Shown here in pieces: positions 1 through 9,784 of a stretch of 64,000 bases of DNA. The notes below the pieces were generated by a model. It saw only the letters and a list, made by a program, of their open reading frames with translations. It did no database searches and was not told where the DNA came from. The DNA is from Alphaproteobacteria bacterium (GTDB lineage: Bacteria; Pseudomonadota; Alphaproteobacteria; UBA7887). Each line of letters begins with the position of its first letter. Within the stretch, counting starts at the first letter, position 1. Made by a program: the position numbers and the translations under genes. The stretch spans positions 1 through 64,000 of the forward strand of contig JASLYQ010000009.1 in the NCBI GenBank assembly GCA_030739735.1, in the 5' to 3' direction.

Positions 1-3000
1 GACAATCCGGCGGCTTTAGATGGTCGAGGATGGACGTTGCTAGCGCAAAATAAACCCAACGAAGCCCTCTCCACTTTCAATGCTGCATTGGAAATCTCCC
101 CGACCTTCGCCAACAGCCGCGCCGGCGTAACCGCAGCGCAACGCGTTCTGATGGTTGACTACAGCCGCGGCTGGGCTTTGGTCAACGCCGGTAATTTCGA
201 AGCCGCCGCCGAAGCGTTCAATTTGGCGCGCCAACAGGCGCCCGAGGACCTGATGTGGTTGGTGGAGGACGGGTTTGCCTGGATCGATTTTTACAAGGGC
301 GATCTGGAAACAGCGAAGGAGCAATTCACGTCGATCGTAAGCAAAACGCAAGACGCCTACCTCTCATACAAAGGGTTAGGTTTCATTGCGCTGCGCAATA
401 GCGATTTCGATACGGCGGTTAAGCAGCTGGGAACTTCCTTCTCCAGCAATGCGTTTCAACCGCTGATGGACTACACTTCTGCCGCCAGTACACTGCTCGA
501 AGCTGGGCAACACGACAATGCAAAACTCATCTTAGAATTGGCGGAAAAGATCTATCCCCTATCGGCAGACGTGCAGTTCATGCTTGCCAAAGCCTATGAC
601 GGTTTGAAGGACAAACCTACTGCGGCGACAAAACTAGCGATTGCTACCCGTTTGGCGCCGGCCTACATCCATCCGGTTTTCGATCAGATTGCCGACCTAC
701 CGCAGGATGAACTCAAGCAGGCGCGTATCGAGATGGGCTGGGGTCTCTACTACGTGGGCAATACCGAAGCTGCCTTGGCGCGTTTCGACGAATTTTTCAG
801 CATGGGCAGCGACAACCCAGACGCCAACCTATCCGCTCGCCTGGGGCGTGCTTGGACCAACTTGGCGGCAAATTCGCTGGAACAAGCGGCAGCGGATTTC
901 GAGCAAGCGGGAAGCATTCGCGAGAACGCAGCTACCTATACCGGCTTGGGATGGGTCTCGCTCAATTCCAATGATGTCGATGGAGCCCGGCAACAATTCA
1001 CCAAAGCACTTGAGGTGATACCTGGATATGCGCCGGCCTTAAATGGTTTGTACACGATTCCCTATCGTTTGACGGCTATCGTCCAGGATGGCTGGAACGC
1101 TTACTACACGGCACGTTACAACACCGCACTGAAGGCGTTTGAGGAGAAGCGCCTGGATGCAGAGGCAGAGAAGAACCCAGCAGCCGAGGACGGCCGCGGG
1201 TGGACCCTGCTCGCTATGGGCCAGCCAACCGAGGCAGCTGCCGCGTTTGAGGCCGCACTAGAGATTGATTCCACCTTCCCATTTTCCCGCAGCGGTCTGA
1301 TCGCGGCACAACGGGCCTCCATGACCCGCTACAACCAAGCGTGGGCGGCCCTCAATGTGGGGAATATGGAGGCAGCCGAGAAGGGGTTCGAAGAGGCGAG
1401 AGCGGAAACCTTCGATGAGTTCTTGTGGCTGATTGATGACGGTTTGGCGTGGACGGCCTATTATCAAGAAGAATACGGCAAGGCGGCGTTGGCGTTTAGC
1501 GCGGTTATAGAGGACCATCCGGAAGCCTATATCTCGAGAAAGGGATTGGGCTACGTGGCACTCCAGACGGGAGATATTGATATGGCCATGCAAGAAGTGA
1601 TGGCCTCGGTCGGTCAAAACCCGTTCCAAGCGATCGGTGTGTATACCTTCCCGGCCACGCGCCTCATCGAAAAGAGAGAATTCAACCGGGCAAAAGATCT
1701 TTTGGAAGTGGGAGAGCGGACTTATCCGGCATCGTCCGACCTCAAGTTCCTCTTAGCCAAAGTCTTCAAGGGTCTGAATGACGACACGCGCGCCATTGAA
1801 AAAGCGCAGCAGGCGGTTCGATTGGCTCCCGCCTACATCCATCCCGTATTTGACGAGCTCGAATTGCCCATGCAGGAAACTCAGCAGGCCTTACTCGATA
1901 TGGCCTGGGGTTTGTACTACGCGGGCAATTCCCAAGCAGCACAAGTCCGTTTGGATCAGTATGCGAATGCCGGTGGCGCAAGCCTATCTGCATCCCTCGC
2001 CAAGGGATGGATCCAGCTGGGGCTGAAAGACCCCGAAGAGGCCGAGAGAACTTTCAAGGCCATTCTGGACGAGGGGACTGTAACCGATGGTTATGCCGGG
2101 CTTGGTTGGGCGTTGCTAAACCAACAGCGCACTAAAGAGGCTCAGAAGGCCTTTGATCGCGCACTGGAACTTGCTCCCTACCACGGGTCCGCACTAAGTG
2201 GCGTAGGCAGTATTCAGTTTGCCAAGACCCAAGCCGTGAAAGAGGCCTGGGAACACTACTATAAAGGCGAATATGAGGAAGCGCTGGCGGCTTTCGACGC
2301 TAAGCGAGATGCGGTCAAGTCGGAGGATAACCCGGCGGCGGAAGATGGTCGCGGGTGGAGCCTGCTGGCCCTACAGCGTCCTCAAGATGCGGTACAAGCC
2401 TTCAAAGCAGCCCTCGAAATTGACGACGCCTTCCCTTATTCGAAGAGCGGTCTCGTAGCCGCGGAACGGGCCTCCGCGCAGCTTTATAATCAAGCCTGGG
2501 CGTTCCTCAATGCCGGCCAATTTGAACAAGCCGAAAAGCGTTTCAACGAGGCACGCGAAGAACTACCTAAAAATGTTGCGTGGCTGATCGATGACGGGCT
2601 GGCATGGTCGGCGTTCTACCAGGACAAAATCGATGTCGCCGAAGCGTCCTTTAAGAAGATCGTCGATGCCGAACCCAATGCCTACCTATCCAGAACTGGC
2701 CTCGGGCTCGTCGCCATCGAAAAACGCTCCTACGACGAAGCGATGAAACACTTGAAGGCGTCGTTTGAGCAAGCGCCACTGCAAGCAATTTCTTCGTACA
2801 CCGTGGCCAGCCTAAAACTACTTGAGAATGAACAAGCCCAACAAGCAAAAGAAATATTGGAACTTGGTGAGCGGATCTATCCCTACTCAGTGGACGTTCA
2901 GTTCCTCTTGGCCAAGGCCTTTAAGGCGCTTGGCAATGAGGATGCCGCCTTAACCAAAGCGCAGGCCGCCGCCAATCTGGCGCCTGCCTATGTTGATCCG

Positions 3001-3552
3001 GTGTTTGACGAATTGGAACTGGCCGCCGGGAACTCGAAGGGTATCTACTATAGCCTAGCCTGGGGACAGTACTTCTCTGGCAACAACGAAGCAGCGATAA
3101 AGCGTTTCGACCAATACATCACATTGGACGGTGAAGAGATCAACGCTCAGCGTGGCCGTGGTTTTGCCTTGTTCCGCTTGGGCCAGTATGACGACGCCAT
3201 CGAGGCGTTGGAAAAAGTGACTGCCAAGGAACCGGATGAACTTCAGCCGATTTCGGAAGTTCTGCCCATTCCCGGGACCGACACTTCATGGACGGTGATT
3301 TACAATGCGACGACAACGTTAGCCTGGAGCTACTACCGCACCGAACGGCCAGAACGGGCGCAGAAAGAGTTTGAAAAAATGCTCGCGGTCTACCCCAACT
3401 GGATCGACGCATTGACCGGGCTGGGTTATGCCCGGTTGGAGCAGAAAAATAAACAAGGCGCGGAGGAGGCCTTCAAGGAGGCCTTAAAGCTGTTGCCATA
3501 CTATCCCGATGCTCTTCAGGGACTCGGCATGGTAGAAGGCGAGAAAGGCTAA
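1..3552 (+). CDS. Giant tetratricopeptide-repeat protein, 5' end outside window
   Basis: The frame is open from base 1, so the true start lies upstream. About 1183 residues are visible, nearly all degenerate 34-residue TPR helices (patterns such as GLGYVAL and AxxxFxxALExxP). A higher-order repeat is clear: the motif NPAAxDGRGWxLL recurs at nt 4, 1174 and 2329, a spacing of 390 then 385 residues. Within each unit the order is the same: WLIDDGLAW, YLSRKGLG, IYPxSxDVQFLLAKA, LAPAYIHPVFDEL, MAWGLYYxGN. The last unit lacks a new NPAA block and ends in ordinary TPRs. TPR superhelices are protein-binding scaffolds. Nothing visible tells whether it is exported, because the N-terminus is missing. The next gene starts 9 nt downstream with a strong SD, so it is the first visible gene of the island operon. 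Function unknown. Confidence 0.9.
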   Translation, partial: DNPAALDGRGWTLLAQNKPNEALSTFNAALEISPTFANSRAGVTAAQRVLMVDYSRGWALVNAGNFEAAAEAFNLARQQAPEDLMWLVEDGFAWIDFYKGDLETAKEQFTSIVSKTQDAYLSYKGLGFIALRNSDFDTAVKQLGTSFSSNAFQPLMDYTSAASTLLEAGQHDNAKLILELAEKIYPLSADVQFMLAKAYDGLKDKPTAATKLAIATRLAPAYIHPVFDQIADLPQDELKQARIEMGWGLYYVGNTEAALARFDEFFSMGSDNPDANLSARLGRAWTNLAANSLEQAAADFEQAGSIRENAATYTGLGWVSLNSNDVDGARQQFTKALEVIPGYAPALNGLYTIPYRLTAIVQDGWNAYYTARYNTALKAFEEKRLDAEAEKNPAAEDGRGWTLLAMGQPTEAAAAFEAALEIDSTFPFSRSGLIAAQRASMTRYNQAWAALNVGNMEAAEKGFEEARAETFDEFLWLIDDGLAWTAYYQEEYGKAALAFSAVIEDHPEAYISRKGLGYVALQTGDIDMAMQEVMASVGQNPFQAIGVYTFPATRLIEKREFNRAKDLLEVGERTYPASSDLKFLLAKVFKGLNDDTRAIEKAQQAVRLAPAYIHPVFDELELPMQETQQALLDMAWGLYYAGNSQAAQVRLDQYANAGGASLSASLAKGWIQLGLKDPEEAERTFKAILDEGTVTDGYAGLGWALLNQQRTKEAQKAFDRALELAPYHGSALSGVGSIQFAKTQAVKEAWEHYYKGEYEEALAAFDAKRDAVKSEDNPAAEDGRGWSLLALQRPQDAVQAFKAALEIDDAFPYSKSGLVAAERASAQLYNQAWAFLNAGQFEQAEKRFNEAREELPKNVAWLIDDGLAWSAFYQDKIDVAEASFKKIVDAEPNAYLSRTGLGLVAIEKRSYDEAMKHLKASFEQAPLQAISSYTVASLKLLENEQAQQAKEILELGERIYPYSVDVQFLLAKAFKALGNEDAALTKAQAAANLAPAYVDPVFDELELAAGNSKGIYYSLAWGQYFSGNNEAAIKRFDQYITLDGEEINAQRGRGFALFRLGQYDDAIEALEKVTAKEPDELQPISEVLPIPGTDTSWTVIYNATTTLAWSYYRTERPERAQKEFEKMLAVYPNWIDALTGLGYARLEQKNKQGAEEAFKEALKLLPYYPDALQGLGMVEGEKG

Positions 3553-3561
3553 CGGGAGGAA

Positions 3562-3837
3562 ATGGAGAACGAACTCTGGCGGTTGAAGGATCGGGTTCGT
3601 CTGGAAGGAGACGAATCAGAGACCGGCGGCGTGCTTTACGACACCTACACGGCAACCATGTATTCGTGCAATCACACGGCATGGTCCGTGCTCCAAAGGT
3701 TGGCGGCGCCAGCCGATTTGGAGGAACTTAGCACCGACGTGGTCAAGCAATTCGACGTGGCGCAGGAGAAAGCGCAGGATGACGTTCTCCTGCTTATGCG
3801 TCAGCTGCAGTCGATGGATTTGCTAGATTTTGGTTAA
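3562..3837 (+). CDS. PqqD-like peptide-binding (RRE-type) protein
   Basis: This 91-residue protein has the size and pattern of the PqqD family: a basic N-terminal strand, GGVLYDTYTATMYSCN (the usual G-x-LYD...LN strand pair), then TAWSVLQRL and the closing helices ending in LMRQLQSMDLLDFG. PqqD folds (RiPP recognition elements) bind leader peptides and hand them to modifying enzymes. The ATG has a GGGAGGA Shine-Dalgarno 2 nt upstream, and the 3' end overlaps the next gene by 8 nt, which implies translational coupling to the ATP-grasp enzyme. There is no pqqA, pqqC or pqqE here, so PQQ synthesis is unlikely. I infer that it presents a peptide or protein substrate to the neighbouring enzymes. 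No precursor peptide was recognised in the window. Confidence 0.75.
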   Translation: MENELWRLKDRVRLEGDESETGGVLYDTYTATMYSCNHTAWSVLQRLAAPADLEELSTDVVKQFDVAQEKAQDDVLLLMRQLQSMDLLDFG

Positions 3838-5995
3838 AGCCATCCGTGTCGCGGTAACCGGGTTTGGGGGTTTGAATAACCCCGAACCCGGCACCCCCGT
3901 GGCCAGATCCTTACGTCAGGGATGGCCCGGAAAACTCCACATACATGCCATGGGATACGACACCTGGATGACCGGCGGTTGGATGCCCGGGGTCGTCGAT
4001 GAACTGCACCTTCTCTGCCCCTTGGCCGAGGGTGATGAAGCGGTTCTTCAACGCTTGATGGGCATTCACAAGAAAAGTCGCTTTGATGTCCTTATTCCGT
4101 GTCTGGATTTGGAGGTGCCCGTCTTCGCCAGACTGTCTGGCCGCTTGGCGAAGGCGGGTATCAAAACCCTCCTACCCGAACAAGAGGCCATCGCCAAAGT
4201 CAACAAGGCAGCGTTGTCCATATTTTGCAGCCGAAACGACATTCCCTCTCCCAAGACAATCTATGTACCCGAAGTGGCAAATGTGCCGTTTTACGCCGAT
4301 CAGCTGGGCTATCCGCTCATGGTGAAAGGTTTCGTTGCCGGGGCAACAAAGGTTGCCCGCAGGGACGAGGCACACGATGCGGCCATTAAATTCAATGCAA
4401 AATGGGGCGGAGGGGTAATCCTACAGGAAGCCTTGGAAGGCGAGGAATACGTCGTTGCGATGGTGGCGAGACGGGATGGCAGCTGTTTGGGGTCCACTCC
4501 CGTCCGCAAAATCGGAATTAACGAGCATGGTAAGGCCGTCGTTGGTGCCGTTGTCGATGATCCGACTTTGGATCGTGAGAGCCAGCGGATCCTTTCGCAG
4601 TTGGGATGGCGTGGTCCTCTAGAGCTTGAGTTTCTTCGTCCCAACAACAGCATTCGGTTCAACCTGATCGAGATCAATTGCCGCTTCCCATCTTGGATTT
4701 TGCTGTCCCATTTCGCGCAAAGCAACCTGCCGGTTGCATACTTGAAAGAGATCATTTCACCGGGCAAACGTCGTCCCCCAAAACCCAGATGCGGCACCGT
4801 TTTTGTGCGTGACGTGCAGGACAATACGGTGAGGGTAGACGAGTTCGAGAGGCTCAATCGTTTTTTGAGCATGCCTGTAAACGGCAACTTCGATGGCAAC
4901 GGAAGTTTGAAGCCCTCTGAAACAAAAAAATACAATGGGGGGCAGGATAAACTATGTGTAGCGGTCACCGGTCCCAGCGCCTTTGAGGTCGTGTTACCGG
5001 GACTCGGCGTCGCGAAATCGCTTCTCTCGGTTCCAGAAGTTTCGGAGATTGTTGCTCTCGGGAGGGACCCTTACGATACGGGCATGTATCGGCGGGGGCT
5101 ATTCGACCGTGCGGAACGCCTGCCACAATGGGATAACAGCGACGAGTTATTGGATTGGTTCAAAAATTTACAACGGCGTAATCCTATTGATGTCGTTATT
5201 CCCTGCATCGACTTTGAAGTTATGGGTTGTGTGGAAATTGCTTCGGAATTAGCTGAAATTGGCATCAAAACCCTACTGCCCAGCGCCAGCGCGATGAAGA
5301 AACGCTCCAAGGAAAAGTTACCGGAGATCGTTCGAAAGTTAAACCTAGCGGGCCTAGAGGTTCCTAAAAGCCAAGTTCTGCGCACCGAAATTGCGGTGAA
5401 ACGCGCAACTAAAACTCTTGGACTGCCCTTCGCCCTTAAATGTGAAATAGCAGCGACCGAAATCATCTATTCCGAAGATCAGGCCGTTCAAGTGTGGCGC
5501 AAATGGCGGGACCGCGGAGAGGACATACCGATTGCTCAGCAATTCATAGCCGGAGACGAATTTGCCGGGGCAGGAGTTTGTTCTCGTCACCATCACTTTA
5601 ATTGCACCGTCTCAATAAAAAAATTGAAACGATGCGATCGTGGCAATACGTGGGGCGCGACGACAGCCGATCTTTCTGATCTTATGGTGGACCTAGGCCG
5701 GTTGCTAAAAAAGATCAAATGGGTCGGACCATTTGAAGTGGAGTATATTCGAGATATCACTCGCGAGAAGTTCTATCTTCTTGAAATAAATCCACGCTTT
5801 CCGGCCTGGATAAATTTCACCGCGGAAATGGGAACAAACCTCCCACGAGATGTCATCCGCCTGATGTGCAATGAGACAGCCCAGGAAAAAACACTAGAAT
5901 CCGATCTGATTTTTACGCGAAGTTGTGAGGAAATTTCAGTAACGACCTTGTCATTAGCCAACTTTGCGACAAAGGGATATATCGAACATGTCTGA
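3830..5995 (+). CDS. Tandem ATP-grasp ligase (two complete modules)
   Basis: A 721-residue protein made of two homologous halves (about 1-365 and 375-721). Each begins with a Rossmann-like pre-ATP-grasp strand (VAVTGFGG and VAVTGPSA), continues with a matching segment (VLIPCLDLEV and VVIPCIDFEV, then GIKTLLP in both), and ends in the ATP-grasp metal and phosphate site (LELEF with LIEINCRFPSW; FEVEY with LLEINPRFPAW). Both halves keep the Glu-x-Asn metal ligands and the following Arg, so both may bind ATP. ATP-grasp enzymes activate a carboxylate as acyl phosphate and join it to an amine, thiol or similar group. It resembles CarB only in domain plan: it is much shorter and has no allosteric or oligomerisation domain. 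The TTG start overlaps the PqqD-like gene by 8 nt; the 3' end overlaps the decarboxylase by 8 nt. Substrate unknown. Confidence 0.8.
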   Translation: MVKAIRVAVTGFGGLNNPEPGTPVARSLRQGWPGKLHIHAMGYDTWMTGGWMPGVVDELHLLCPLAEGDEAVLQRLMGIHKKSRFDVLIPCLDLEVPVFARLSGRLAKAGIKTLLPEQEAIAKVNKAALSIFCSRNDIPSPKTIYVPEVANVPFYADQLGYPLMVKGFVAGATKVARRDEAHDAAIKFNAKWGGGVILQEALEGEEYVVAMVARRDGSCLGSTPVRKIGINEHGKAVVGAVVDDPTLDRESQRILSQLGWRGPLELEFLRPNNSIRFNLIEINCRFPSWILLSHFAQSNLPVAYLKEIISPGKRRPPKPRCGTVFVRDVQDNTVRVDEFERLNRFLSMPVNGNFDGNGSLKPSETKKYNGGQDKLCVAVTGPSAFEVVLPGLGVAKSLLSVPEVSEIVALGRDPYDTGMYRRGLFDRAERLPQWDNSDELLDWFKNLQRRNPIDVVIPCIDFEVMGCVEIASELAEIGIKTLLPSASAMKKRSKEKLPEIVRKLNLAGLEVPKSQVLRTEIAVKRATKTLGLPFALKCEIAATEIIYSEDQAVQVWRKWRDRGEDIPIAQQFIAGDEFAGAGVCSRHHHFNCTVSIKKLKRCDRGNTWGATTADLSDLMVDLGRLLKKIKWVGPFEVEYIRDITREKFYLLEINPRFPAWINFTAEMGTNLPRDVIRLMCNETAQEKTLESDLIFTRSCEEISVTTLSLANFATKGYIEHV

Positions 5996-7376
5996 GAGGC
6001 TGCCTTATGTATCGCCTAGTATCGAGCGGTTGGAGAGGCTCTCCATTTCATCTATGGGCAAGCATGAAATGTTTGCCATTACTCCGGCCTCCAGCTTCGA
6101 CGAACCCTACGAAGTGTCGTCCTTGTTAGAGCAATTCGGATCACCTCTGTTTATTGTTTCGGAACAAACGCTTCGCGCTCAGTACCAATCTTTTCTGAAT
6201 ACCTTTACCGCAAAGGGGATCGAAACACGGGTCGCCTACTCCTACAAAACAAATTACTTGCCGGGCGTTATTTCCGTTTTCTTGGACGAGGGGGCTCTGT
6301 CCGAGGTTGTGTCGGGAACGGAATACAAACTTGCCCGCGCTTTGGGGGTCCTAGGAAAAGATATTATTTTCAACGGCCCGTTCAAGACGCCGGAGGAGTT
6401 GGAGCGAGCCGTCAAAGATGGGGCGTTAATTCACATCGATAACTTCAATGAGCTAGAGGCGCTGACCGCCGTCGTCGATAAATTGGAGCAGTCGGCGCGC
6501 CTTGGTATCCGCGTACACTTCGAATATGGCCATAACCCGTGGACAAAATTCGGGTTCAGTGCCGACAACGGCGTGGCCATCAAGGTTCTTGAGAAGATCG
6601 CCAAACATGATCGTTTAGAGCTGGTTTCCCTACACAATCACAGCGGCACCTTCCAAGTGGATCCGCAGGTGTATGCGCAGGCGGCCATGGTCCTTCTCAG
6701 ATTGGTCAAGGAGGCCCGCAAACTGGGAATGAAGCCCGAGATGCTGGACTTCGGCGGCGGCTATCCGTCGCGCAATCAGCTCAAACCCGAGTTCGACGTA
6801 CCGGGAGGATCGAATTTTCAACAAGATATGCTGTCCCTGTACGCGGAAGCAATCCTTCACCGTGTCGCGCGTCAAAAGAACTTGTTTGATAAGTCTCCTA
6901 TTGTTGTGTTGGAACCCGGCCGTACCGTGGTGGACACTGCGGTACGATTGGCTTGCACAGTGGTTTCAACCAAGAAAAATCCAGACCACGGTGATGCCAT
7001 CGTAGTGGACGCCGGGGTTAATATCCTTCCGACCGCATATTGGTATGATCACGAGATCGAACGTGCCAAGGGTACGGAGAAAAAAGAAGTCAAGACTTTG
7101 CGTCCAGTTAGCGTGTTCGGACCACTCTGTATGCAGATCGATGTGGTGCGGGAGCGCGCCTTATTGCCACCCCTATCGGTGGGCGATCCTTTGCTTATTT
7201 CCAATGTGGGCGCTTACTGCCAGACCCAGTCCATGCAGTTCATCCATACTCGGCCCGCCACCATATTACTGGGGCCAGACGGTCCCGAAGTGATCCGGCA
7301 GAGAGAAACCTGGCGAGATTTTTTCTGCAATGACAGCATCCCTGCACGGCTTCGCCCTCCCAACGCCGATTTTTAG
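5988..7376 (+). CDS. Fold-type III PLP-dependent decarboxylase (LysA/ODC-like)
   Basis: About 462 residues with the signatures of the diaminopimelate/ornithine/arginine decarboxylase family: the PLP lysine in VAYSYKTNY near residue 87, the His in HNHSGTFQ near 216, the phosphate-binding glycine loop DFGGGYPSR, EPGRTVV near 309, the cross-subunit cysteine in GPLCMQIDVV, and GAYCQTQSMQF near the C-terminus. I chose ATG 5988 over the TTG at 5964 because it has AAAGGGA about 10 nt upstream and gives the usual short overlap with the ATP-grasp gene. The reaction is probably alpha-decarboxylation of a basic or meso amino acid, free or attached to a carrier; the sequence does not fix the substrate. 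It sits between the ligase and the urea-transporter/Sir2 fusion and shares 47 nt with the latter. Confidence 0.85.
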   Translation: MSERLPYVSPSIERLERLSISSMGKHEMFAITPASSFDEPYEVSSLLEQFGSPLFIVSEQTLRAQYQSFLNTFTAKGIETRVAYSYKTNYLPGVISVFLDEGALSEVVSGTEYKLARALGVLGKDIIFNGPFKTPEELERAVKDGALIHIDNFNELEALTAVVDKLEQSARLGIRVHFEYGHNPWTKFGFSADNGVAIKVLEKIAKHDRLELVSLHNHSGTFQVDPQVYAQAAMVLLRLVKEARKLGMKPEMLDFGGGYPSRNQLKPEFDVPGGSNFQQDMLSLYAEAILHRVARQKNLFDKSPIVVLEPGRTVVDTAVRLACTVVSTKKNPDHGDAIVVDAGVNILPTAYWYDHEIERAKGTEKKEVKTLRPVSVFGPLCMQIDVVRERALLPPLSVGDPLLISNVGAYCQTQSMQFIHTRPATILLGPDGPEVIRQRETWRDFFCNDSIPARLRPPNADF

Positions 7377-8979
7377 TACGGGCCCAACAGCGATCGCGCG
7401 AGCCATCGCGCAGGTCTCCTTTGGAGATCGATGGTGGATGGGTATTGTCCTATTCCTGAGCACCGTGGCGATCGCGCCTTGGAGTGCCGCTGGACTAGCG
7501 GTGGGCGCCGCAATTGGTGTCGTCGCCGGTTTTGGCCGGGGGGCGGTGCCCAGAAGAGAGTGGGAAGCGGGGTTGACCGGTGTCAATCCTGCCATCGTAG
7601 GAATTGCCTGGGGTGGGGTCTTGGCGCGGGGGGAGGCGACCGCCTGGTTGTTGCCATTCGCTTTACTAGTTTGCGTGGGTTTGGACAGCTTTCTACGACC
7701 GAAATTTCGGGAGTGGAATTTTCCTCTTCTCGGTGCGTCAGCGGTGGTGACTATTTGGGGCAGTATCTTTGTCTTTCAAAGTTTCGGTATTTCCTTTTGG
7801 GCGCACCCCGGCGTGGTACCGTTCGGCCCGTGGGGGGTCGCTGTGTGTGTCGCGGGTGTCGCGATCATCCTGGCTTCCGTTTGCTTTTCGGCTGCCGTGG
7901 TGACTGCTGCCTTGACAGCAATTGCAGTCGTCGGAAGCGGTATCTTTTTTTATGCTGGCTGGGTGGGGCCCAGTGCCTATTGGGCCTTTACAGTGGCGCC
8001 GGCGGTTTTTGCTGTTCATGGCATTTTTCTCGCTGGGTCGCGTCTGGGCGCCGTGATTGGTACCGCCGCCGCATTGATCGCCAGTGCAGCATGGGCGCTG
8101 TGGATTTATTCTCCTCTCGACGCGTATCTTGCGCCCGTTCTAGCGCCTTGTTTTTTAGGCATATGGCTGACGCTGTTTTGGACGCGCAAGCGCTTCGGCC
8201 TTGAGATAGCAGATCCAATGCTATGGGACGTGGCACGTAAGATACGCCGAGCCAAGACGAGAGGTAGGAAAACAGTCGTCCTCGCAGGTGCCGGAATGGG
8301 CGTCGCTTCGGGCATACCCGACTATATTAACGGCCACTGGCTCAATCCCAATATTCCGGTGGAAGAATATGCGTTTGGACGCTTTCTGGTCTCCTCGCAA
8401 GCTCGTCGAAACTACTGGGATGCCTGCGAATGGTTTCGAGAAACAGTGGACGCTGCGCGACCCAATTCTGGCCATCTCGCTTTAACTGCCCTCGAAAAAA
8501 AGGGGTGGCTGGACAGCGTAGTCACGCAAAACGTCGACCGGCTTCAGCAGCAGGCCGGGTCAAAAGCCGTTGTCGATTTGCATGGCCGCATCGATATCGT
8601 AGGCTGCCTGCAATGTGGTTGGACTGGCCCGTGGCCAGATCCTGAGACTTGGCGTTCGGAGAGTGTTCACTGCCCGGAGTGTGGAGGCCTGGTGAAACCA
8701 CGAGTCATCGCCATGGGAGAGGACATCACTCCAGCAACGTGGCGAGCGGCCGAAACGGCGATAATGGATTGTGGTGTTGTTCTAGTAGTTGGCAGTCAAA
8801 TGGCAATTTCTTCTGCCGTATCGCTGCTTGCACTGGCACGAAAGAACCATGCAGATGTCGTGGTGATTTCGATAGGTGTCATGCGGCAACCTACTCTACC
8901 TGAGGACATAACCATCGCAAAAAAAGCCGAGGATGTTCTTCCTGCATTGGCGATTCTATTGGATTGTAAAGCTGCCTGA
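7330..8979 (+). CDS. Urea-transporter-like membrane domain fused to Sir2 deacylase
   Basis: This 549-residue protein has two parts. Residues about 20-285 are hydrophobic with many membrane segments and resemble the urea transporter (UT) family: ARAIAQVSFGDRWWMGI corresponds to the family's RGxxQVFFQNNxxTG start, and GLTGVNPAIVGIAWGG to GLYGFNGxLVGxA. Residues about 300-545 are a Sir2 NAD-dependent deacylase: GAGMGVASGIPDY, TQNVDRLQQQAGS, catalytic His in LHG near 417, four zinc cysteines (CLQC, CPEC), KPRVIAMGE and the late GSQMAISS loop. Two canonical positions differ: GAGIS is GAGMG, and the Arg after IPDY is Ile. The Sir2 part would face the cytoplasm if the UT topology is kept. The ATG lies inside the decarboxylase gene (47 nt overlap). 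I know of no described UT-Sir2 fusion; the Sir2 call is firm, the UT call moderate. Confidence 0.78.
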   Translation: MTASLHGFALPTPIFSTGPTAIARAIAQVSFGDRWWMGIVLFLSTVAIAPWSAAGLAVGAAIGVVAGFGRGAVPRREWEAGLTGVNPAIVGIAWGGVLARGEATAWLLPFALLVCVGLDSFLRPKFREWNFPLLGASAVVTIWGSIFVFQSFGISFWAHPGVVPFGPWGVAVCVAGVAIILASVCFSAAVVTAALTAIAVVGSGIFFYAGWVGPSAYWAFTVAPAVFAVHGIFLAGSRLGAVIGTAAALIASAAWALWIYSPLDAYLAPVLAPCFLGIWLTLFWTRKRFGLEIADPMLWDVARKIRRAKTRGRKTVVLAGAGMGVASGIPDYINGHWLNPNIPVEEYAFGRFLVSSQARRNYWDACEWFRETVDAARPNSGHLALTALEKKGWLDSVVTQNVDRLQQQAGSKAVVDLHGRIDIVGCLQCGWTGPWPDPETWRSESVHCPECGGLVKPRVIAMGEDITPATWRAAETAIMDCGVVLVVGSQMAISSAVSLLALARKNHADVVVISIGVMRQPTLPEDITIAKKAEDVLPALAILLDCKAA

Positions 8980-9507: not shown

Positions 9508-9710
9508 GTCGATTCAACTGTCACAGCATACGGACCGTGGGAATAGGGTTCCGGCGTCGGAATAAGGTATCGGGGCTTGAGCTAGAGAATCCGCGTACCT
9601 CGCAAAAACGGGAAACCGCTTACGGAACATCCACGCATTTTGCGGACATTCTGTGGATATACATCGGTGATCAGGAAGCTCAGCGCCGCCTAACCCATTG
9701 GAACAATTGG

Positions 9711-9784
<74 letters not shown>

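Follow-up and report, generated by a model that had tools for sequence, protein, structure and literature searches.

The first 8,979 nucleotides of a 64,000-nucleotide stretch of DNA (positions 1 to 64,000 of contig JASLYQ010000009.1, assembly GCA_030739735.1; hereafter the window) from Alphaproteobacteria bacterium of the lineage UBA7887 carry five genes on the plus strand. They encode, in order, a tetratricopeptide repeat (TPR) protein, a small PqqD-like protein, a double ATP-grasp ligase, a pyridoxal phosphate (PLP)-dependent decarboxylase and a urea transporter (UT)-like membrane domain fused to a Sir2 domain. This operon is a rarer variant of a widespread PqqD/ATP-grasp/decarboxylase/UT-M23 gene set. 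Its PqqD protein, judged by profile, is a recognition element (RRE) for ribosomally synthesised and post-translationally modified peptides (RiPPs), of the kind found in lasso peptide B1 proteins, and its ligand is probably the N-terminal tail of the decarboxylase encoded two genes downstream. Taken as a whole, the reading of these genes as a conserved biosynthetic operon at the inner membrane, in which a ligase and a decarboxylase are docked through an RRE, has in our estimate a probability of about 0.5.

A conserved gene set with two layouts

The genes are closely packed. The TPR gene (1..3552) is separated by 9 nucleotides from the PqqD-like gene (3562..3837; PF05402, E=1e-9), which overlaps the ATP-grasp open reading frame (ORF; 3830..5995; PF15632 in two stretches) by 8 nucleotides. 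The decarboxylase gene (5988..7376) again overlaps its predecessor by 8 nucleotides, and the UT-Sir2 gene (7330..8979; PF03253 E=7e-11, PF02146 E=1e-30) overlaps the decarboxylase gene by 47. ORFs, junctions and Pfam/NCBIfam matches all agree on this arrangement, which a first-pass annotation of the same DNA had taken for a single unit. Conservation points the same way. In G015, a genome of the same class but another family, all five genes occur in unchanged order and the ligase, decarboxylase and UT-Sir2 proteins are 44-55% identical; at roughly 40-56% identity, the five-gene order is also found in beta- and alphaproteobacteria, Nitrospinota, Myxococcota and Omnitrophota. Since it recurs in other phyla, the set is not a chance assembly, and the scattering of these genes in relatives, which would have spoken against a unit, is not what is seen: the PqqD and tandem ATP-grasp pair keeps company with the decarboxylase and UT-Sir2 genes, in the same order, in several phyla.

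Relatives were collected by searching genome contigs of 84,980 species (one genome per species) with an alignment of the decarboxylase, which returned at least 570, the best 80 of which were used; layouts were assigned with profiles built in this analysis. The search with the decarboxylase alignment succeeded where a single-sequence search of the same contigs with the ATP-grasp protein found no relatives. Two layouts emerge. Type II, that of the window (TPR, PqqD, two ATP-grasp domains, decarboxylase, UT-Sir2), is represented by L026 and L028-L036, some of them incomplete. Type I consists of PqqD, a single ATP-grasp domain, the decarboxylase and a UT domain joined to an M23 peptidase. With about 70 loci it is far commoner, and it is present in Bacteroidota, Aquificota, Thermodesulfobacteriota, Myxococcota, Gemmatimonadota, Verrucomicrobia, Planctomycetes, Gallionellaceae, Methylococcaceae and others. 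Type I is often extended by outer-membrane-barrel-like families, unnamed by any library scanned, and by a TPR protein of about 210 residues with a signal-peptide-like start. Beside one locus of each type, the opposite strand carries a TPR gene together with a gene for a barrel-like outer-membrane protein (L029:11080-12593 (-), Type II; L060:153-1839 (-), Type I). PqqD is found in 72 of 85 loci, and most of the others end at a contig edge beside the ligase. Of 398 Pseudomonadota genomes sampled separately, 34 have the decarboxylase family and one has UT-Sir2 at E<=1e-55.

Several Type II loci have further neighbours in common. GNAT genes adjoin six of them (L026, L028, L030, L031, L032 and L034) and NadE-like genes three (L028, L030 and L031), which fits with acyl chemistry and a supply of NAD.

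PqqD and the tail of the decarboxylase

The PqqD profile matches the lasso RREs TfuB1 (1.9e-14) and TbiB1 (2.3e-12), and far more weakly the PqqD of pyrroloquinoline quinone synthesis (0.0026). Discrete lasso RREs bind the motif [Y/W]xxPx[L/V/I/F/A] (PMC13381572). In LppB, the bend at the proline of the leader is held by N33, without which the complex is almost lost; D70 forms a bond to the leader tyrosine, and F74 contacts both the proline and the second pocket (PMC13381572). The same spacing is found in the PqqD proteins as N37, D74 and F78, which are retained in 70, 59 and 63 of 72 sequences, respectively. In the window, N37 and D74 correspond to the Asn and Asp with which LppB binds the leader, and position 78 is a leucine.

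The matching ligand motif is carried by the decarboxylase. Residues 7-12 of the window protein (6006..6023) read YVSPSI, an instance of the YxxPx[IL] element that is the ligand of lasso RREs (PMC13381572), and an N-terminal extension with [YWF]xxPx[ILVF] is present on all 83 cluster decarboxylases. It recurs in 19 of 19 decarboxylases from a later sample, all from loci with PqqD, ligase and UT, at least one of which nearly duplicates an earlier one. The motif is absent from both decarboxylase homologues whose loci are without PqqD, ligase and UT (L110 and L111) and from all 28 LysA controls, two of whose tails (L134 and L138) were anchored at a doubtful place. For the first set, Fisher's test of motif against cluster membership gives p 5e-28, a value to be read with the relatedness, and hence non-independence, of the sequences in mind. 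Two motifs (YEAPQI in L026 and NYEAPNI in L034) were taken by eye from the sequence, the automatic anchor having landed elsewhere. Together, the lasso-RRE profile, the retained leader-binding residues and the tail motif make a strong case at the level of sequence for an interaction between PqqD and the decarboxylase. The first-pass annotation had PqqD hold a peptide or protein substrate; the peptide-binding role stands, with the tail of an enzyme rather than a separate substrate as the probable ligand. Co-variation between the tail Y/W and PqqD was also considered and dropped as evidence, the strongest columns lying mainly at the PqqD C-terminus and being confounded by phylogeny.

Beyond the motif, 73 of 83 cluster decarboxylases have a lysine 15 residues past the first motif position, with an aromatic residue, His or Val next to it; the lysine lies within [M/L]NK[F/H]G in most Type I proteins and K[H/F] in Type II. 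The corresponding residue of the window protein, Lys25 (6060..6062), lies 18 residues past Tyr7 and is a candidate acylation site. Two genomes of the same class were also seen to keep a decarboxylase of this family that has neither tail nor cluster and whose active-site loop is changed to CMPED (L113:4814-6046 and L114:6938-8419).

A ligase and a decarboxylase with an FslC-type loop

The decarboxylase has the alanine-racemase fold of the LysA/FslC-like enzymes. The PLP lysine and HxHxGT are present in all the sequences compared and E[PST]GR in 81 of 85. By pattern match, the specificity loop is CM[NQ]xD in 81 of 83 cluster decarboxylases (CMQID in the window), which resembles that of FslC (CMQHD), LysA having CESxD instead (CESSD in 1tuf). 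The closest named family is indeed FslC, the N-citrylornithine decarboxylase, at 217.6 bits against a cut-off of 500; the curated LysA family scores 198.9 bits, below its cut-off of 297.9. A canonical LysA is encoded elsewhere in the genome (C10, 455 bits), so the operon enzyme is not the housekeeping one. That identity was rejected on all three counts, namely score, loop and the separate LysA. The FslC clade includes SbnH, AcsE, MccE and BtrK, decarboxylases whose substrates are citryl conjugates, an intermediate of microcin C and a carrier protein that bears a glutamyl group (PMC7857480). By analogy with this clade, and from the FslC-type loop and the ligase families, ligation would precede decarboxylation.

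Catalytic residues are retained in both ATP-grasp domains (3830..4939 and 4940..5995; in the second, E-x-N-x-R and the Lys residues are intact). The structure model (predicted local distance difference test score, pLDDT, 88) is like the large chains of carbamoyl-phosphate synthase over both halves and like L-amino-acid ligases over one. Against the carbamoyl-phosphate synthase large subunit family the whole chain scores 26.6 bits, with a cut-off of 1027, and the likeness is one of fold only; the ligase is of the CarB/PRK12767 kind. That it works together with the decarboxylase, as first proposed, is supported.

The membrane end

In Type I proteins the UT domain is full length (PF03253, 218 bits). 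In the window protein (7330..8199) only the first half scores with PF03253, and the structure model shows the full set of helices. The Sir2 domain follows at 8227..8964; in the UT-Sir2 model (pLDDT 83.5) this portion matches solved sirtuins. In the window domain, and throughout the six aligned Type II proteins, GAG, QNxD (QNVD in the window), the catalytic His and the four zinc cysteines are present and the Arg of GIPDFR is lacking. The score against the CobB family is 162 bits, the cut-off being 320.

No transmembrane segment intervenes between UT and the C-terminal M23 or Sir2 domain in any of 76 proteins. Both termini of known UTs are cytosolic, so the Sir2 and M23 domains are probably cytosolic as well. 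The first-pass annotation placed Sir2 action at the membrane, tied to a solute-channel-like domain; the Sir2 domain itself is probably on the cytosolic side. Sir2 enzymes act on acyl-lysines, and M23 peptidases cleave amides of peptidoglycan, including side-chain amides; the interchange of the two domains would agree with a step that removes something from a lysine.

The TPR protein, with three long repeat modules of about 390 residues each, had been regarded as a scaffold. Its full-length relatives open with a signal-peptide-like segment, which makes a periplasmic partner likelier than a scaffold for the enzymes.

A proposed pathway and its alternatives

In the pathway that we favour, PqqD would bind the YxxPx[IL] tail and so bring the decarboxylase to the ligase, the step for which the sequence evidence is strong. 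The ligase families suggest that an amino acid would then be joined in amide linkage to a small molecule or to the conserved lysine of the tail, after which the decarboxylase, with its FslC conjugate-type loop, would strip the alpha-carboxylate from the conjugated amino acid. The probably cytosolic amide-cleaving domain on the urea-channel-like protein, which is Sir2 in the window and M23 in the majority of relatives, may process the product or release it from the tail, and the adjoining channel may move it out. Periplasmic TPR proteins, joined in Type I by the barrel-like outer-membrane proteins, would take it onward. The doubling of the ligase in Type II, with GNAT often and NAD synthase sometimes added, would agree with a cycle of acylation and deacylation around Sir2.

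Several points weigh against this scheme: the second half of the window UT is too divergent for the Pfam model; M23 is placed in the cytosol by homology to known UTs; the GIPDFR arginine is absent from the fused Sir2; and the tail lysine is not invariant, being missing from its position in L080, L090 and L078 and shifted in L043, L045 and L055.

How far the tail itself takes part in the chemistry divides the next two readings. The tail could be an assembly tag and nothing else, tethering the decarboxylase to PqqD and the ligase. The decarboxylase would then work, as in rhizoferrin synthesis, on a free small-molecule amide made by the ligase, and the product would leave through the UT. We consider this a real contender, although less likely than not: FslC, the closest characterised decarboxylase, works on a free conjugate, and the tail lysine is not invariant. 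A pure docking role nevertheless leaves unexplained why a lysine so often stands 15 residues past the motif, and why the partner of the UT should be a lysine deacylase or an M23 peptidase. In the second reading the tail is a covalent carrier. The decarboxylase would then bring its own substrate arm: with the tail presented by the RRE, the ligase would load an amino acid onto the tail lysine, the same enzyme would decarboxylate it, and the channel-fused Sir2, or an isopeptide-cleaving M23, would release and export the product. This is a tentative proposal and somewhat doubtful; if true, the pathway would be RiPP-like, with a swinging arm borne by the enzyme and a membrane channel at its end.

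A conventional RiPP pathway, in which the precursor served by PqqD is encoded far away or lacks annotation and the tail of the decarboxylase imitates its leader so as to regulate or compete, seems improbable. The lasso-RRE kind of the PqqD would suit it, as would a free 64-residue ORF between ligase and decarboxylase in one locus from Melioribacteraceae (L070:246-437), which starts YxxPxI...KYG and is possibly a true precursor peptide. No second locus has such a peptide, however. The short conserved precursor ORF that the first-pass annotation suggested looking for was sought in the loci examined and none was found, the idea being rejected for want of conservation; ligase-decarboxylase junctions mostly overlap or span less than 60 nucleotides, and it is the tail, rather than a precursor, that stays with the cluster. 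Two wider ligase-decarboxylase gaps (L049:7684-7890 and L099:5951-6125) resemble repeat-derived sequence, not genes. Peptidoglycan recycling or modification, with M23 cutting cross-links and the ligase and decarboxylase processing peptides that contain diaminopimelate, is very unlikely: the M23 relatives are peptidoglycan hydrolases and the decarboxylase is related to diaminopimelate decarboxylase, but the M23 domain follows the UT without a further transmembrane segment and is hence probably cytosolic, Sir2 takes its place in Type II, and the decarboxylase loop is FslC-like and not LysA-like.

Comparison with described systems

The operon shares with lasso peptide biosynthesis a B1-kind PqqD (TfuB1, TbiB1) and a presumed ligand with [Y/W]xxPx[L/V/I/F/A] (PMC13381572), but the motif is on the decarboxylase here and on the precursor peptide in lasso systems. 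Neither a B2 protease nor an asparagine-synthetase-like cyclase is present among the operon genes of the window or the recurrent flanking families. Rhizoferrin synthesis (FslA/FigA with FslC/FigC) likewise pairs a ligase with an alanine-racemase-fold decarboxylase with a CMQxD loop, which acts there after amide formation; there, however, the ligase is a siderophore synthetase of the nonribosomal peptide synthetase-independent (NIS) type instead of an ATP-grasp enzyme, FslC has no reported PqqD partner, and the operon decarboxylase scores under the FslC cut-off. The butirosin side-chain pathway involves BtrI, BtrK and BtrJ. There too a ligase works with a related decarboxylase (BtrK), which acts on a carrier-tethered amino acid (PMC7857480), whereas our operon is without an acyl carrier protein and tethering to the tail of the decarboxylase is no more than a proposal. 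Graspetide clusters combine an ATP-grasp ligase, peptide recognition and nearby TPR genes (PMC8939145), but the operon has no precursor ORF and its ligase is of the CarB/PRK12767 kind; the graspetide survey is silent on decarboxylases, urea transporters and M23 (PMC8939145). Finally, the Rossmann/zinc fold, QNVD and catalytic His are those of CobB/Sir2 deacylases, from which the window protein differs by its fused UT-like domain, the lost arginine and a score under the CobB cut-off.

As for what defines a RiPP cluster, an RRE is present and an encoded precursor peptide was not found in the loci, the free YxxP ORF of L070 apart. Searches of the open-licence literature that combined PqqD, ATP-grasp and decarboxylase with urea transporter, Sir2 and M23 found no paper that describes the set, in Type I or Type II form; the first-pass annotation, too, knew of no pathway with these genes. 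The set lacks defining features of lasso, RiPP, LysA and FslC systems, and within that literature we call it new as a system.

Evolution and genomic setting

In a LysA-rooted tree Type II forms one clade (SH-aLRT 88), with the cluster-less homologues L110 and L111 inside it; trees were quick and supports are moderate. The nested position of these two (100, long branch) indicates that the tail was apparently lost together with the cluster, and their active-site C-loop is altered as well, to CMPED. The deepest Type II loci are L036, in which the ligases are two separate genes and UT and Sir2 are also separate, and L035, with separate ligases and a fused UT-Sir2; both group with Type I when the outgroup is omitted. 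The neighbouring UT and Sir2 genes of L036 are found fused in other loci, which supports a working partnership.

Because the window begins at base 1 of its contig (contig 9), the TPR gene is truncated at its 5' end, and any genes upstream are out of view. In G015 a GNAT acetyltransferase gene overlaps the TPR start by 4 nucleotides (ATGA). GNAT genes precede the TPR gene in three Type II operons, L026 (11241-11807, 4-nucleotide overlap), L032 (344-880) and L034 (1280-1786). From these three, a GNAT gene is predicted just beyond the start of the contig; a search of the window's own genome, in which the sequence upstream is missing, found none. The operon has a G+C content of 54%, compared with 61.5% for the remainder of the window, and a tRNA-Arg(ccg) gene lies shortly downstream (9708-9784). 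The operon may possibly be an acquired block.

Significance

A gene set distributed over many phyla thus appears to be without a described function. The proposed pathway makes three predictions: that PqqD binds the decarboxylase tail, that the decarboxylase acts on a conjugate, and that the Sir2 and M23 domains are cytosolic. It would also give context to the fusion of a urea-channel fold with a deacylase or a peptidase. More generally, the operon suggests that RREs, known for their recognition of RiPP precursors, may extend that recognition to a leader-like tag on an enzyme; if so, the reading of RREs in genome mining would change.

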